DNA of 54,344 bases, taken from positions 1-54,344 of the forward strand of contig DAIDME010000062.1 of assembly GCA_027449125.1 (NCBI GenBank). Reading direction: 5' to 3'. The position numbers were made by a program, and so were the translations under genes. The DNA is from Solirubrobacterales bacterium (lineage in GTDB: Bacteria; Actinomycetota; Thermoleophilia; Solirubrobacterales; Solirubrobacteraceae). Numbering within the stretch: the stretch's first letter is position 1; each line of letters begins with the position of its first letter. Below are positions 17,299 through 24,288 of this stretch, piece by piece. Under the pieces are notes generated by a model. It saw only the letters and a list, made by a program, of their open reading frames with translations, did not search any database and was not told where the DNA came from.

Positions 17299-17307
17299 TT
17301 AGTGCCG

Positions 17308-17796
17308 ATGATCTTCTCCTCCAAAGCCGAATATGGCGTGCGGCTGATGGTTGAGCTCGGGCGTCAGAGCCCGGAGCGGCCCGTGAGCCTGAAGGCGATC
17401 GCTGACGCGGAAGGACTCCCACTCGCCTACCTGGAGCAGGTGGTGGCCCGGCTCCGGCGTGCCGATCTGGTGATGAGTGCGCGCGGAGCGCACGGCGGTT
17501 ACTGGCTGGCGCGCGAGCCGGCCGAGATCACCATGTATGACGTGGTCAGCGCGCTGGAGGGCCCGATCGCGCCGATGGAGTGTTTCGTGCACGACGAGAT
17601 GGAGCGCGTCCTCTGCTCTCACCTGCCCGCGCAGAGCAGCGGTCCGTGTGCGACCAAGCTGCTCTGGACCCGCGTGCAGGGCGGCATCGTGCGCTCGTTG
17701 CAGACCACCACGCTGGCAGAGCTCGTCGCGTTCTCACGCCGCGAGTCTCAGCCTCGACTAGAGGTAGAGCTACCTGTGCTGCAGCCGCAGCTCTGA
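17308..17796 (+). CDS. Rrf2-family transcriptional regulator (SufR/IscR-like) heading the SUF cluster
   Basis: A 162-residue winged-helix Rrf2 regulator. The N-terminal IFSSKAEYGVRLMVEL, recognition region PLAYLEQVVARLRRADLV and wing SARGAHGGYWLAR match the family. Three cysteines, C92, C103 and C114, sit where Rrf2 proteins bind an iron-sulfur cluster; spacing is 10 residues each rather than the 5 of E. coli IscR. It most likely senses cluster supply and controls the suf genes that follow 63 nt downstream. ATG 17308 is preferred over GTG 17302 because of the TAGGAT spacing and because family proteins start there. Confidence 0.9.
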   Translation: MIFSSKAEYGVRLMVELGRQSPERPVSLKAIADAEGLPLAYLEQVVARLRRADLVMSARGAHGGYWLAREPAEITMYDVVSALEGPIAPMECFVHDEMERVLCSHLPAQSSGPCATKLLWTRVQGGIVRSLQTTTLAELVAFSRRESQPRLEVELPVLQPQL

Positions 17797-17859: not shown

Positions 17860-18645
17860 ATGCCAGACCTAGAGATCAGAAACCTCCACGTTCGCGCCGG
17901 CGAGAAGGAGATCCTGCGCGGCGTCGATCTGCACGTGGGCGGCGGCGAGGTTCACGCCCTGATGGGGCCAAACGGCTCCGGCAAGTCGACCCTCGCCAAC
18001 GTGATCATGGGCCATCCGAGCCTTGAGGTCACCGATGGCGAGATCATCTGGGGTGGCGAGAACATAACCGAGGCCGAGACCGACGAGCGCGCCCGCATGG
18101 GCCTGTTCATGGCGTTCCAGTACCCGGTCGCCGTGCCGGGGGTGACGGTCACGAAGTACCTGCGCACGGTGCTGAACGCCCACCGCAGCGCGCGCGGGGA
18201 GCAGCCCATCTCGCTCAAGGACTTCCGTCAGACGGTGCAGGCGGCGATGGAGCTGACCAGCGTTCCCGAGGAGTTCACGCGCCGCTACCTCAACGACGGC
18301 TTCTCCGGCGGCGAGAAGAAGAAGCTGGAGATCCTGCAGCTCGCCGTGCAGCGCCCGGCGCTGGCGATCCTCGACGAGACCGACTCGGGTCTCGACATCG
18401 ACGCGCTGCGGATCGTCGCCGAGGGTGTCAACACCGTCGCCGGCCAGCAGGGCGCCGAGCTGGGCGTGCTGATCATCACCCACTACCAGCGGATCCTGCA
18501 CATGGTCAAGCCGAGCCATGTGCACGTCCTCTACCGCGGCCGCATCGTCAAGCAGGGCGGCCCGGAGCTGGTCGAGGAGCTGGAGGCGAAGGGCTACGGC
18601 TGGATCACCGACGAGGTCGACGCGCAGGAGGCGGCGGCGGTCTGA
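17860..18645 (+). CDS. sufC: SUF system ATPase SufC
   Basis: A 261-residue ABC-type ATPase that drives the SufBCD scaffold in iron-sulfur assembly. Walker A GPNGSGKST, signature FSGGEKKKLEILQLA and Walker B ALAILDETDSGLDIDAL are the SufC-specific versions, and the switch histidine is in LIITHYQRIL. Its stop overlaps the sufS start (TGATG). It comes first in the cluster, before sufS, whereas many actinobacteria have sufB-sufD-sufC-sufS-sufU. Confidence 0.96.
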   Translation: MPDLEIRNLHVRAGEKEILRGVDLHVGGGEVHALMGPNGSGKSTLANVIMGHPSLEVTDGEIIWGGENITEAETDERARMGLFMAFQYPVAVPGVTVTKYLRTVLNAHRSARGEQPISLKDFRQTVQAAMELTSVPEEFTRRYLNDGFSGGEKKKLEILQLAVQRPALAILDETDSGLDIDALRIVAEGVNTVAGQQGAELGVLIITHYQRILHMVKPSHVHVLYRGRIVKQGGPELVEELEAKGYGWITDEVDAQEAAAV

Positions 18646-19880
18646 TGACGCTGCAGGTGACCGATATCGGCGAGCTCGCCGCGGAGTTCGCGGTGCTCGA
18701 ACGGCGCATCGACGGTCGTCCGATCACCTACCTGGATGCCGCCGCCACGTCGTTGACCCCGCGGGTCGTGGTCGACGCGATCGTCGACTACTACACCAAT
18801 CACCGAGCGTCGGTGCATCGCGGCGTCTACCCGCTGATCGTGGAGGCCACCGAGCTCTACGAGGGCGCGAGGGAGCGGATCGCCGCCTGGCTCGGATCGA
18901 CGCCGCTCGAGACGATCTTCACCGCCAACGCGACGGCGTCGCTGAACCTCGTCGCCCACTCCTGGGGACGTGCGAACCTGAATTCGGGCGACACGGTGCT
19001 CGTCACGGAGCTGGAGCACCACTCGAACCTCGTGCCCTGGCAGCTGATCTGTGAGGAGCGGGGCGCCAGCATCGAGTACATCCCCGTGCTCGACGACGGG
19101 ACGCTCGACCTCGATGCTTACCAGCTGCTCCTGGCGCGCGCGCCAAAGCTGGTCTGCGTGGCGCACGTCTCCAACGTGCTCGGCACGATCAATCCCGTCG
19201 CCGAGATCACACGCGAGGCCCACGCCGCCGGAGCGATCGTCGTGATCGACGGCACCCAGGCGGTGCCCCAGATCGCTGTGGACCTGCGCGAGATCGACGC
19301 GGACTTCTATGCGTGGACCGGGCACAAGGCCTACGGGCCCACCGGCGTCGGCGTCCTGCACGGCCGCCGGGAGCTGCTCCAGGCGATGCCGCCCTTCATC
19401 AGCGGCGGGCACATGATCAAGCAGGTGTTCCAGGCGAGCTCGACCTGGACCGAGCTTCCGGGCAAGTTCGAGGCCGGCACCTCACAGATCGCCGAGGCGA
19501 TCGGCCTGGGCGCGGCCGTGGGCTTCATCCAGGAGATCGGGATCGATTCGATCCGGGCCCACGAGTCCGCTCTCACGGCCGCCCTGCTTGAGCGGATGGC
19601 GGAGTTCCCCGGCCTGCACGTGCACGGGCCGCTCGACCCCGCAAAGCGCGGCGCGCTCGTCTCCTTTGCGATGGACGGCGCGCATCCGCACGACATCGGC
19701 GAGATCCTGGGCCGCGAGGGGGTCTGCGTGCGCACGGGACATCACTGCGCGCAGCCGCTCATGCGCCGCCTGCGGGTCGGGTCGACGACGCGCGCATCGT
19801 TTGCCATCCACAACACGACCGACGACATCGACCGGCTGATGCACGGGCTGGAGAGCGTCAGAAGGGTCCTGGCGCTCTAG
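18645..19880 (+). CDS. sufS: Cysteine desulfurase SufS
   Basis: A 411-residue group II cysteine desulfurase that takes sulfur from cysteine as an enzyme persulfide for cluster assembly. The PLP lysine motif AWTGHKAYGPTGVG and the catalytic loop VRTGHHCAQPLMRRL with C368 are intact, and the N-terminal YLDAAATSLTPRVV is typical. It overlaps sufC by 1 nt and is followed immediately by sufU, its usual sulfur-accepting partner. Confidence 0.96.
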   Translation: MTLQVTDIGELAAEFAVLERRIDGRPITYLDAAATSLTPRVVVDAIVDYYTNHRASVHRGVYPLIVEATELYEGARERIAAWLGSTPLETIFTANATASLNLVAHSWGRANLNSGDTVLVTELEHHSNLVPWQLICEERGASIEYIPVLDDGTLDLDAYQLLLARAPKLVCVAHVSNVLGTINPVAEITREAHAAGAIVVIDGTQAVPQIAVDLREIDADFYAWTGHKAYGPTGVGVLHGRRELLQAMPPFISGGHMIKQVFQASSTWTELPGKFEAGTSQIAEAIGLGAAVGFIQEIGIDSIRAHESALTAALLERMAEFPGLHVHGPLDPAKRGALVSFAMDGAHPHDIGEILGREGVCVRTGHHCAQPLMRRLRVGSTTRASFAIHNTTDDIDRLMHGLESVRRVLAL

Positions 19881-20273
19881 ATGGACGACCAGCTGTATCG
19901 CGAATACATCCTCGAGCACTACAAGCACCCGCACAACTTCGGCTCGCTGGAACGCGCCGACATGCAGGCCCACGACCTGAACCCGCTGTGCGGCGACGAG
20001 ATCACCTTCCAGATCGCGCTCGACGGCGCGGGCCGGGTGAGCGAGGTGGCGTTTGACGGGCACGGCTGCGCGATCTCGCAGGCGGCGGCGTCGATGCTCT
20101 CCGACGAGCTGCGCGGGATGACGACCGAGGAGCTGCTCAAGCTGGATCGCCAGGCGGTGCTGGAGCTGCTCGGGATCGACATCTCGGCCACGCGCATGAA
20201 GTGCGCGCTGCTGTCGCTCAAGGTCGTCAAGGCGGCCGCGCTCGGTCACGAGGTCGGGTGGGAGCCAGAGTGA
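19881..20273 (+). CDS. sufU: SUF sulfur-relay/scaffold protein SufU
   Basis: A 130-residue SufU/IscU-type protein that accepts persulfide sulfur from SufS. Ligand residues are C37 and D39 in NPLCGDE, C63 in GHGCAIS and C108 in MKCALLSLK; the extra insertion between the second and third cysteine is the SufU hallmark. It begins directly after the sufS stop with no spacer, so translation is coupled. It ends 37 bp before the Rieske gene. Confidence 0.95.
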
Positions 20274-20310: not shown

Positions 20311-20628
20311 GTGACGAGTGTGGTCGAGGTCTGTCCGCTGAGCGAGCTTCCGTCCGGTCGGGTGCGCGTTGTGGAGCACGCCGGCGTCGAGGTCGGCGTG
20401 TTCAACTGCGGCGGCGAGCTGTTCGCGATCGAAGATCGCTGCTCCCACGACGATGGCCCGCTCGCAGAGGGCGCGATCGACGTGGACGCCTGCACCGTCG
20501 AGTGCCCGCGCCACGGAGCGATCTTCGACCTGAGGACGGGCAGGCCGCGAACGTTACCCGCGTATGAGCCGGTGGACACCTTCACGGTGACCGTCGACGA
20601 GGACATGATCAAGCTGGAGGTGGACTGA
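20311..20628 (+). CDS. Rieske-type [2Fe-2S] ferredoxin in the SUF cluster
   Basis: A 105-residue soluble Rieske protein like the ferredoxin components of ring-hydroxylating dioxygenases. Cluster ligands are C44 and H46 (CSHDDGPL) and C65 and H68 (CPRHGAIFD). It may supply electrons for assembly or be an early client; neither is shown by sequence. It lies between sufU and sufB, its stop overlaps the sufB start (TGATG), and it appears to have its own leaderless promoter. Confidence 0.93.
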   Translation: MTSVVEVCPLSELPSGRVRVVEHAGVEVGVFNCGGELFAIEDRCSHDDGPLAEGAIDVDACTVECPRHGAIFDLRTGRPRTLPAYEPVDTFTVTVDEDMIKLEVD

Positions 20629-23231
20629 TGGCCACGACCGACACCCGAACCGCCGCCGACGAGCTCACGGCGCCCGAGCAACTGGAGGCGCAGCTCAGCG
20701 AGAACGAGCGGCTCGCCCAGATCAACTCTGACTACGACGAGCGCTACGGCTTCCACGACGCCGAGAACTACCTCTACAAGGCGCCGAAGGGCATCAACCG
20801 CGAGATCGTGGAGAAGATCTCCGAGTTCAAGTCAGAGCCCGCGTGGATGCGGGAGTTCCGCCTCAGGGCGCTGGAGCAGTTCTTCGCCAAGCCGCAGCCG
20901 ACCTGGGGCTCGCCGATGCTCCAGCAGGTCAACTACGACGACATCCACTACTTCGTGCGTGCCTCCGAGAGGCCCGGCCGCTCCTGGGACGACGTGCCAG
21001 AGGACGTCAAGCGCACCTTCGACCGCCTGGGGATCCCCGAGGCCGAGCGCAAGTTCCTGGCGGGCGTCGGCGCCCAGTACGAGTCCGAGGTCGTCTACCA
21101 CCAGGTGCGCGAGGACCTCCAGAAGCAGGGCGTGGTCTTCCTCGACATGGACTCCGGCCTGCGCGAGCACGAGGAGATCGTGCGCGAGTACTTCGCCACC
21201 GTGATCCCGCCCAACGACAACAAGCTGGCGGCGCTCAACTCCGCCGTCTGGTCGGGCGGCTCGTTCGTCTACGTGCCCAAGGGCGTCCACGTCGAGATGC
21301 CGCTGCAGGCCTACTTCCGCATCAACACCGAGAACATGGGCCAGTTCGAGCGCACCTTGATCATCGCCGACGAGGGCTCCTATGTGCACTACGTGGAGGG
21401 CTGCCACCTCGCTGGTTCGATGGTGCGCGTGCGCGACGGCGAGAAGCCGATCGAGGAGATCGAGCCTGGGGATGAGGTGCTCACCCATCAGGGACGCTTT
21501 CGCCGTGTGCTCGAGCCCATGCGCCGGCGCCGCTCCGGGCCGATCTACAGAATCAGGTTCCAAGGGGAGGGCTACAGGTCTCTGACGGTCACGCCTGGGC
21601 ACCCCTTCCTCGTCGCGCGCCGCAGCCGCGAGCGCGAGCACAACCGCACGTTCCAGCCCGAGTGGATCACCGCCCAGGAGCTGCGCAAGGGCGACTACCT
21701 GGCACTGCCGGCCCGGATCGATGTCGAGCCTGAGCCGGAGTTGCTGGTCGAGACCGATGTCAGCGTCGGCGCAGGCCGCCACGCGGCCACGCTCGAGCGC
21801 GTCGCGGTGGCCGTCGACGACAAGATGGCGCGGGTCATGGGCCTCTACATCGCGGAGGGGTCGGTCAGCGCCAACACCTCCTACCTGTCCTTTGACAGCG
21901 CTGCGCACGAGCGAGACCTGCGGGAGCTCGTGGAGACCGTGGTCGGTGGGGCCTTCGGGCTGGATAGCTGGGAGTACGACTATCGCGATGAGCGCGCCGG
22001 TCGTTCGCTGCGCTTTTCCTCCGTGCGGGCGGCGCGCTTCTTCGCCCAGACCTTCGGGCGCACGACCGAGGAGCTGCACATCCCGGATTGGGTCTTCTCG
22101 CTGGCGGAGCGCGACAGGGCAGCGTTTGTGCGCGGGCTCTACGACGGCGAGGGCTCATACGACAGTGAGCTTGACCTCTATCGCATCAATCAAACCAACA
22201 GGCAGGTGGCTCAGCGCCTGCGCGAGCTGCTGCTCTCGCTGAGCATCCGCGCCACGCTCAGCGTGACTGAGCGTCCACTGCCACGGCAGCCAATGTGGCA
22301 GGTGGCGGTTTCCAAGGCGGACCATCCACGCTTCGAGCGGCTGGTGCTCGGCGCCGCCGACCCCGGACCCGCGAGGGCAACGCATGCTCAGACCGTGATG
22401 GCCGACGGTTATCTCTGGATGCCGATCTCCTCGATCGAGCAGTTCAACGCGACCTGTGAGGTCTTCAACATGAGCGTGGAGGAGGACGAGAGCTACGTCT
22501 GTGAGGGCGTCGTCTCCCACAACTGCACAGCGCCGACCTACAGCTCATCGTCGCTCCATTCCGCGGTGGTCGAGCTGATCGCCAAGCCGGGCGCGCGGAT
22601 CCGCTACACGACGGTGCAGAACTGGTCGGCCAACGTCTTCAACCTCGTCACCAAGCGCGCCGTCGCCTACGAGGACGCCACCGTCGAGTGGGTCGATTGC
22701 AACCTCGGCTCGAAGCTGACGATGAAGTACCCGAGCGTGTATCTGATGGGCGAGCGCGCGCACGGCGAGATCCTTTCGATCGCCTTCGCCGGGCACGGCC
22801 AGCACCAGGACGCCGGCGGCAAGATCATCCACGTGGCGCCGAACACGACGTCGAACATCTTCGCCAAGTCGATCTCAAAGGACGGCGGCCGCGGCTCCTA
22901 CCGCGGCCTGCTCGAGATCGCCAAGGGCGCGCACGGGGCGCGCAGCAAGGTGGTCTGCGACGCGCTGCTGCTCGACGAGCAGTCCCGCTCAGACACGTAT
23001 CCGACGATCCGCATCTCCGAGGACGACGTCAACGTCGGCCACGAGGCGACCGTCTCGAAGGTCGGCGAGGACCAGCTCTTCTACCTCATGAGCCACGGCA
23101 TCCCCGAGGACGAGGCCTCCAAGCTGATCGTCAACGGCTTCATCGAGCCGATCACCAAGGAGCTGCCGATGGAGTACGCGGTCGAGATGAACCGCCTGAT
23201 CGAGCTGCAGATGGAGGGCTCCATTGGCTGA
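20628..23231 (+). CDS. sufB: SufB Fe-S scaffold subunit interrupted by an in-frame intein
   Basis: An 867-residue precursor. Exteins 1-258 and 633-867 join to a 493-residue SufB, the SufBCD subunit on which clusters are built. Flanking motifs YVEG and CTAPTYSSSSLHSAVVE make a normal SufB sequence once the insert is removed. The insert, residues 259-632, begins with Cys, ends His-Asn and is followed by Cys, so it should self-splice. By position, C633 corresponds to the conserved Cys near 254 of E. coli SufB reported to take sulfur during assembly. Without splicing, SufB should be inactive. Mycobacterial SufB proteins also carry inteins at or near this place. The 3' end overlaps sufD by 8 nt. 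Confidence 0.96.
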   Translation: MATTDTRTAADELTAPEQLEAQLSENERLAQINSDYDERYGFHDAENYLYKAPKGINREIVEKISEFKSEPAWMREFRLRALEQFFAKPQPTWGSPMLQQVNYDDIHYFVRASERPGRSWDDVPEDVKRTFDRLGIPEAERKFLAGVGAQYESEVVYHQVREDLQKQGVVFLDMDSGLREHEEIVREYFATVIPPNDNKLAALNSAVWSGGSFVYVPKGVHVEMPLQAYFRINTENMGQFERTLIIADEGSYVHYVEGCHLAGSMVRVRDGEKPIEEIEPGDEVLTHQGRFRRVLEPMRRRRSGPIYRIRFQGEGYRSLTVTPGHPFLVARRSREREHNRTFQPEWITAQELRKGDYLALPARIDVEPEPELLVETDVSVGAGRHAATLERVAVAVDDKMARVMGLYIAEGSVSANTSYLSFDSAAHERDLRELVETVVGGAFGLDSWEYDYRDERAGRSLRFSSVRAARFFAQTFGRTTEELHIPDWVFSLAERDRAAFVRGLYDGEGSYDSELDLYRINQTNRQVAQRLRELLLSLSIRATLSVTERPLPRQPMWQVAVSKADHPRFERLVLGAADPGPARATHAQTVMADGYLWMPISSIEQFNATCEVFNMSVEEDESYVCEGVVSHNCTAPTYSSSSLHSAVVELIAKPGARIRYTTVQNWSANVFNLVTKRAVAYEDATVEWVDCNLGSKLTMKYPSVYLMGERAHGEILSIAFAGHGQHQDAGGKIIHVAPNTTSNIFAKSISKDGGRGSYRGLLEIAKGAHGARSKVVCDALLLDEQSRSDTYPTIRISEDDVNVGHEATVSKVGEDQLFYLMSHGIPEDEASKLIVNGFIEPITKELPMEYAVEMNRLIELQMEGSIG
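21402..22523 (+). mobile_element. SufB intein with LAGLIDADG homing endonuclease
   Basis: A 374-residue intein. Numbering from its Cys1: block A begins CHLAGSMVRV; block B is TVTPGHPFL with T64 and H67; endonuclease motifs are VMGLYIAEG (145-153) and FVRGLYDGEG (242-251), with glutamate at both catalytic acid positions; block F covers FNATCEVFNMSVEEDESYV; block G ends VVSHN. All splicing residues (C1, T64-H67, H373, N374, C+1) are present. The full-length two-motif endonuclease suggests it may still home. The insertion is between Gly258 and what becomes Cys259 of mature SufB. Confidence 0.95.
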
Positions 23232-24288
23232 GCTCGCCGCCGTCGCCGCCGGCCCGCTGGCCGGCGGCGTCCCAACGTTCAAAGGCCGCCCGGGGTGGGA
23301 GTTCACCGACATCTCGGCGCTCGACGTCTCCGCCTACCAGCTGGCGCCGGTGCATCCGGCTTGCGGCTCGGATGCCCCGGGCACGCTCTGGGACCTGCCG
23401 GCGGCGAGTCTGCCGGCGGGCGTCGAACTCGGTATCGGCGACGGCGAGGTCACGATCACGGTGCCGCGCGGCACGACGCTCGCACAGCCGATCGCGCTCA
23501 CCTCGGTGCTCGCCGAGGGCCAGCTCGGGAATCTGCGCAGCCGGATCGTGATCGAGGAGGGCGCCCACGCCGAGGTCTGGGAGCAGTTCGTATCGCCAGG
23601 TGACTGCCTGCTCAACCTCGCAACCGAGCTCCAGGTCGCAGACAACGCGAGCCTCCGCTACGTCAACGGTCAGGCACTCTCGGAGCAGGCATGGATCTTC
23701 GGCGCGCAGCACGCGAGCGTCGGGCGTGACGCACGCCTGGACTGGGTCGCACTCGGCTTCGGCTCACGCTCGGGCCACGTGCTGATGCAGACGCGGCTTG
23801 TCGGGCAGGGCGCAGAGGCGCGGGTCACCGGCGCCTACGCCACCCGTGGCGGCCAGCACATCGACTTCGACACCACCCAGGAGCACGCGGCGCCCAACAC
23901 CACCTCCGACCTGGCCTTCCGCGGCGTGCTGACGGGTCGCTCCAGCGCCGTCTGGAAGGGCAACATCATCGTCGACCCCGGCGCCCAGAAGACCGATGCC
24001 TTTCAGGACTCGCGCAACCTGCTGATCTCAAAGCGGGCCCACGCGGACTCGATCCCGGGCCTGGAGATCCAGGCAAACGACGTGCGCTGCACCCACGCCG
24101 CGGCCGTGGCCCAGGTCGATCCCGAGCAGCTCTTCTACCTGCGCTCGCACGGGATGCCCGAGGCCGAGGCCAAGCGTCTGGTGATCGAGGGCTTCCTCGC
24201 GGCGCTGGTCGAGCGCTTCGAGGCGGGGCCGGTGCGCGACGTGCTGGGTGCCGCGCTCGAGCGCCGACTCGAGCTGATCCTGGGCTGA
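23224..24288 (+). CDS. sufD: SUF scaffold subunit SufD
   Basis: A 354-residue SufD, the SufB paralogue that completes SufBC2D. The beta-helix core (HASVGRDARLDWVALGFGSRSGHVLMQTRL) and the C-terminal SufB/D signature (IQANDVRCTHAAAVAQVDPEQLFYLRSHG, with conserved Cys and His) are present. Start is TTG 23224 inside the end of sufB. It is the last suf gene; the region downstream shifts to unrelated genes. The N-terminal 90 residues are less conserved, as usual. Confidence 0.95.
   Translation: MAELAAVAAGPLAGGVPTFKGRPGWEFTDISALDVSAYQLAPVHPACGSDAPGTLWDLPAASLPAGVELGIGDGEVTITVPRGTTLAQPIALTSVLAEGQLGNLRSRIVIEEGAHAEVWEQFVSPGDCLLNLATELQVADNASLRYVNGQALSEQAWIFGAQHASVGRDARLDWVALGFGSRSGHVLMQTRLVGQGAEARVTGAYATRGGQHIDFDTTQEHAAPNTTSDLAFRGVLTGRSSAVWKGNIIVDPGAQKTDAFQDSRNLLISKRAHADSIPGLEIQANDVRCTHAAAVAQVDPEQLFYLRSHGMPEAEAKRLVIEGFLAALVERFEAGPVRDVLGAALERRLELILG

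Follow-up and report, generated by a model that had tools for sequence, protein, structure and literature searches.

The sufB gene of a Solirubrobacterales bacterium (GCA_027449125.1, contig DAIDME010000062.1, of which we analysed a stretch of 54,344 nucleotides, hereafter the window) very probably harbours a mobile class 1 intein, which is lodged at the sulfur-entry site of SufB and carries a LAGLIDADG homing endonuclease with two motifs. This reading builds on features that are observed directly, namely the parts of the element, its exact site, the equivalence of this site with Cys254 of E. coli SufB, the predicted fold, a sporadic distribution among relatives, purifying selection and a relative in decay. 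The arrangement is already known in M. tuberculosis, so that we add a further case, set in a broader family, and do not introduce a switch of a novel type.

The precursor is encoded on the forward strand (as are all features below) by a single open frame of 867 codons for amino acids (20628-23231), which runs through the insert without stop or frameshift and comprises an N-extein of 258 residues ending in VHYVEG (20628-21401), an intein of 374 aa (21402-22523, precursor residues 259-632, starting CHLAGSMV and ending VVSHN) and a C-extein of 235 aa (22524-23228). In an alignment with E. coli SufB (5awf_A), the exteins match right up to and from the joint, as precise excision of a class 1 intein would require. 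Once joined, they read YVEG|CTAPTYSS, exactly as in the original prediction, whose intein coordinates proved correct to the base, and give a product of 493 aa. In the protein scan, Pfam finds SUFBD_core and SufBD_N, with SufB domains on both sides of the intein, together with Intein_splicing and LAGLIDADG_3, at 38.6 and 49.7 bits against cut-offs of 35.8 and 22.5, respectively, while NCBIfam finds sufB (691.9 bits) and intein_Cterm (19.2 bits, cut-off 15.6). When the window's genome was searched in six frames with the Pfam intein model, the sole match was this same intein, at 21.2 bits and therefore below the cut-off, which means that other inteins there may have been missed.

The intein has the parts, and the order of parts, of a class 1 element. 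Its N-terminal splicing part (residues 1-105, 21402-21716, delimited by eye in an alignment of 18 inteins) contains Cys1 and the TPGH of block B at residues 64-67 (21591-21602), while its C-terminal splicing part (residues 331-374, 22392-22523, recognised by TIGR01443 intein_Cterm and the same alignment) contains blocks F and G, and ends in His373-Asn374 immediately before Cys+1. Block F usually has an Asp where this intein has Asn356 (22467-22469), and Asn is found at this position in 18 of the 18 inteins known to us at this site. Between the splicing parts lies the endonuclease region (residues 106-330, 21717-22391, limits again by eye, supported by the structural model, a fold match and PF14528) with its two LAGLIDADG motifs, VMGLYIAEGS (residues 145-154, 21834-21863) and VRGLYDGEGS (residues 243-252, 22128-22157), whose acidic residues are at positions 152 and 250. 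A Cys start, a His-Asn-Cys end and two motifs had been predicted; all are there, and the endonuclease looks complete.

The AlphaFold2 model of the intein (18 alignment rows) has a mean pLDDT of 89.7 and, on our reading, its endonuclease region appears to be built from two alpha-beta-beta-alpha-beta-beta-alpha repeats. Foldseek matches it to the solved intein-endonucleases TliVMA (9.5e-20), PI-SceI (3e-16) and PI-PfuI (1.5e-14), as well as to I-DmoI, and it combines the two motifs, their acidic residues and the pseudo-twofold alpha-beta-beta fold of LAGLIDADG enzymes. The two-domain fold is thus common to our intein and the endonuclease-containing VMA inteins (TliVMA, PI-SceI), which nevertheless reside in a different host protein and share only 14-16% identity with it. 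Modelling the complete precursor gave a less confident structure (mean pLDDT 72.7, pTM 0.48), with poorly predicted junction residues, which nonetheless retrieves SufB and intein structures.

The residue that follows the intein, Cys633 of the precursor and Cys259 after splicing (codon 22524-22526), falls on Cys254 of E. coli SufB in the 5awf_A alignment. It is therefore the conserved sulfur-accepting cysteine, as the original prediction had supposed from position, and its equivalent is the published sulfur-entry residue. In E. coli, sulfur enters at Cys254 and is finally accepted by Cys405, as stated in PMC6006206; the latter falls on spliced Cys403, in a gap-free stretch of the same alignment. 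Among 54 related SufB loci, the window's own included, 51 reach the site (49 genomes, two of them counted twice), all 51 have the cysteine, and in 48 the sequence passes the joint ungapped, whereas G000, G018 and G069 carry the intein. We call this bond site B, since SufB has two further insertion points, site A (AQYE|S) and site C (NLG|S), whose inteins share the host protein with the window's but not the position. Site C corresponds to Gly322|Ser323 of E. coli SufB, close to Thr326 and Lys328, which belong to the proposed sulfur tunnel (PMC6006206).

After translation of the precursor, Cys1 would attack the Gly-Cys peptide bond, Cys+1 (SufB Cys259, E. coli Cys254) would take the N-extein, and Asn374 would cyclise with the help of His373, releasing ligated SufB. 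Because ligated SufB would be freed only by splicing, SufB would presumably work only afterwards. The excised intein would cut intein-free sufB at the conserved VEG|CTAP, and repair would copy the intein in, i.e. homing. We infer, in short, that this intein splices and homes, and that mature SufB depends on its splicing. Inteins favour conserved sites, where they have been argued to persist as parasites (PMC2814812). The choice of site probably reflects its invariability and the +1 nucleophile that it already offers, rather than any need of the host for a switch.

Among relatives, the intein occurs sporadically. Matches (E 1e-8) were found in four of 81 genomes (the window's own and 80 relatives), at site B in G000, G018 and G069 and at another SufB site in G061, while a sufB family match was absent in five of the 81. 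Within the genus, SufB reaches the site in 20 genomes, 18 of which have no intein there. On a SufB tree built from 46 of the 54 loci (one duplicate and seven short rows having been dropped), three changes are needed to account for the presence of the site-B intein. The intein of the congener G018 (L007) is 94% identical to the window's and keeps Cys1, TPGH, the terminal HN and Cys+1, but a 65-residue in-frame deletion, with its junction at a shared short repeat (GAGCGCG), has removed LAGLIDADG motif 1. Between G000 and G018, dN/dS (like dS, computed with our own Nei-Gojobori script) is 0.056 in the endonuclease, while the two splicing parts have 0.106 and 0.047 and the two exteins 0.243 and 0.126. 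G069 is more distant, and its comparison with G000 gives 0.28 for the endonuclease and values of 0.28 and 0.18 for the splicing parts. The low endonuclease value between G000 and G018 (0.056), which falls inside the span of the splicing parts, indicates that this region was under selection until recently. A recent transfer between G000 and G018 is unsupported, since the dS of the intein (0.50) is not below that of the exteins (0.21 and 0.35), and vertical inheritance in the genus, followed by losses, would explain the data equally well. GC3 of intein and exteins is 0.86 vs 0.97 in the window, 0.89 vs 0.94 in G018, and 0.88 vs 0.89 in G069; the gap in the window speaks for a mobile element, but it narrows in G018 and almost vanishes in G069.

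Site C is occupied as well, in G004 and G018 of the window's genus and in G061 of its order. The SufB of G018 has a second intein there, of 372 aa, and loci L147 (G004) and L004 (G061) have an intein at NLG|S and read through at the Cys site. A long open frame in G063 was considered as a fourth intein and dropped, there being no insert in spliced residues 52-444 of its SufB; this frame (L163) ends early, after spliced residue 444.

The nearest kin found outside the window's order sit at the same bond in SufB of the Chloroflexota (the phylum label of L008). Matches were found in 21 of the 301 genomes sampled from this phylum, and 11 of the 301 have a site-B intein, which could be extracted in nine, the gene being split over contigs at the site in the other two; a further site-B intein (L009) came from a separate search that returned 44 loci. 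These inteins (L008, L009, L121-L126, L130, L135) share the site of the window's despite the difference in phylum. Eight are full-size and 37-42% identical to it, while L130 (199 aa) and L135 (158 aa) are mini-inteins without endonuclease motifs. Several have one or two further inteins in the same SufB, and in two cases sites A, B and C are all filled (G732, locus L246, ORF of 1652 aa; G697, locus L247, ORF of 1228 aa), each insert having a Cys at its start and His-Asn at its end. In the open-licence literature searched, we found no paper on SufB inteins in Chloroflexi, and the 'three inteins' of PMC6195587 belong to three different proteins; we make no claim that the Chloroflexota inteins or the triple-intein SufB are unpublished. 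As for the search with 44 loci, L006-L009 are in SufB, whereas L010-L049, without more than 230 SufB residues at >45% identity, were excluded from SufB counts; of these, L010, L011, L013 and L020 were inspected, three having a Hint-like stretch outside SufB and L020 only an RHS-like frame.

No other site-B intein was found in 396 genomes of the window's phylum (E 1e-20, best candidates per genome scored), which yielded one intein each at site C, at site A and in a DnaE-type protein. In the same phylum, the frame of L082 (G108) reads as a DnaE-like polymerase with an intein distantly related to the window's. Phage and plasmid collections (E 1e-5) contained only distant relatives, i.e. 13 phage records with 22-35% identity and 19 plasmid records, all at 22% among the 15 listed. 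On viral contigs, the best 80 of 194 relatives have best segments that are 21-46% identical.

Five genomes, which we take to be Mycobacterium from intein length and extein sequences, have an intein of 359 aa between VHY(V/I)EG and CTAP, which is only 23.6-25.1% identical to the window's and takes places 107-123 in a blastp list of 193 loci. Bench work exists on the SufB (Pps1) intein of M. tuberculosis, whereas we know of none on the window's. The former is 359 aa long and follows an N-extein of 252 aa (PMC8891592). Like the window's, it has Cys1, a penultimate His, a terminal Asn, Cys+1 and an endonuclease domain (same source). The insertion point is the same judging by the length of the N-extein, the Cys+1 and the conserved His-5 and His-38 described there, which fall on His254 and His221 of the window's protein; insertion before the Cys254 equivalent, which marks the Pps1 allele, is therefore seen in the window too.

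This bond might have been colonised more than once. In a tree of 49 inteins, the window's clade is joined to the site-B inteins of Chloroflexota with a support of 99/97, the inteins of sites A and C fall together at 100/100, apart from site B, and the mycobacterial site-B inteins group with viral inteins, a placement to be read with the long branches in mind and with the fact that the viral rows were retrieved with the profile of the window's own family, which may favour some groupings. This tree includes 16 of 18 site-B inteins (the mini-inteins being out), seven of 15 site-A and seven of 11 site-C loci, a single DnaE intein and, hand-picked from the top of the list, 18 of the best 80 viral loci; the remaining non-SufB inteins of the Chloroflexota search were left out. 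In sets of 32 rows, the join of window and Chloroflexota inteins is weaker (93/94, 88/84, 71/86). A single clade for all site-B inteins, put to an AU test when the blastp ranking was already known, was rejected with 49 rows (p 0.029) but not with 32 rows, where p was 0.066 for all columns, 0.102 for the splicing parts only and 0.358 for the endonuclease only. Two intein invasions of this bond are therefore plausible but unproven. The broader picture, in which two lineages (the actinobacterial clade with the Chloroflexota, and the mycobacteria) occupy the Cys254 bond, and SufB is a three-site hotspot along the sulfur path, is put forward tentatively, as something that could well be so but on which we would hesitate to rely. 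The presence of two distantly related lineages at one bond and the two triple-intein SufB of Chloroflexota are possibly new.

Could the insert be an inactive relic, splicing poorly or with a dead endonuclease, in a cell relying on another Fe-S system? Decay does occur, as the loss of one motif in G018 demonstrates, and the Intein_splicing match is barely above the Pfam cut-off for the protein and under it in the six-frame search. However, an unbroken frame with all splicing residues and both motif acids in place, together with a dN/dS below 0.11 in all three parts of the intein between G000 and G018, is hard to reconcile with inactivity, and a sufB family search of the window's genome revealed no second SufB besides SufD. 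We regard a relic as very improbable indeed.

A more attractive alternative is that the intein serves its host, oxidants or iron controlling splicing through Cys1 and Cys+1 and thereby setting the supply of SufB. A redox- or iron-linked switch had been raised as a possibility in the original prediction, which also pointed to the regulator leading the operon. A gene for an Rrf2 family protein (17302-17796; TIGR00738 at 118.6 bits, above its cut-off, but below the cut-offs for IscR and CymR) indeed lies upstream of sufC (17860-18645, TIGR01978), sufS (18645-19880, TIGR01979), sufU (19881-20273, TIGR01994), whose product would be the sulfur donor, a dioxygenase-type ferredoxin gene (20311-20628; NF007422, 113.4 bits against a cut-off of 113) that is presumably Rieske-like, sufB itself and sufD (23224-24288, TIGR01981). 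Nevertheless, Rrf2 had to be rejected as a sign of a switch, because a match to it lies within 10 kb of SufB on the same contig in 13 of the 18 congeners without a site-B intein (G002, G004, G006, G008, G010-G016, G026 and G027, of which G004 has a site-C intein); in the remaining congeners, the genes are on different contigs or farther apart (G007), one of them has no full match, or the site is unreached. Both Rrf2 and SufB are present in G018. In favour of the switch, the Cys+1 is the very cysteine that accepts sulfur, and PMC8529194 and PMC8891592 report such control for the M. tuberculosis intein at the same site. According to the former, splicing of this intein is inhibited by oxidants via a Cys1-Cys+1 disulfide, and the unspliced SufB is blocked from interacting with SufC/SufD (citing Huet 2006 and Topilina 2015). 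The idea is thus in substance published, for the same bond in another species, and to that extent it stands; as a property of the window's intein, it is not supported. The mycobacterial inteins at this site are only distantly related (see their identities above), even within class 1 not every intein shows cysteine-based redox inhibition (PMC6195587), and 18 of the 20 genomes of the genus whose SufB reaches the site have no intein there. Two additional cysteines near the C-terminal splicing blocks, Cys352 and Cys367, are also present in L007 and L006, the two closest relatives, but occur in only three and four, respectively, of the 18 site-B inteins, across which a search for a conserved non-catalytic cysteine found none, Cys1 being the only invariant one. 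We have therefore dropped the idea of a redox box and claim no dedicated sensor. A host-serving switch seems unlikely to us, although far less so than a relic. The sporadic occurrence, the conserved endonuclease and its decay in a relative all point to a selfish element, and the evidence favours a mobile element over a dedicated switch.

For SufB inteins in general, the question is whether splicing serves regulation or whether the intein is only a tolerated parasite. The inteins assembled here offer a natural comparison at one bond, between (i) a full intein, (ii) a version that has lost motif 1, (iii) mini-inteins, (iv) intein-free congeners and (v) the distant mycobacterial intein, and comparing the redox response across these would separate the effect of the site from that of the intein. 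Redox control in both lineages, should it be found, would have to be ascribed to the site, where Cys+1 is Cys254, and not to one particular intein.
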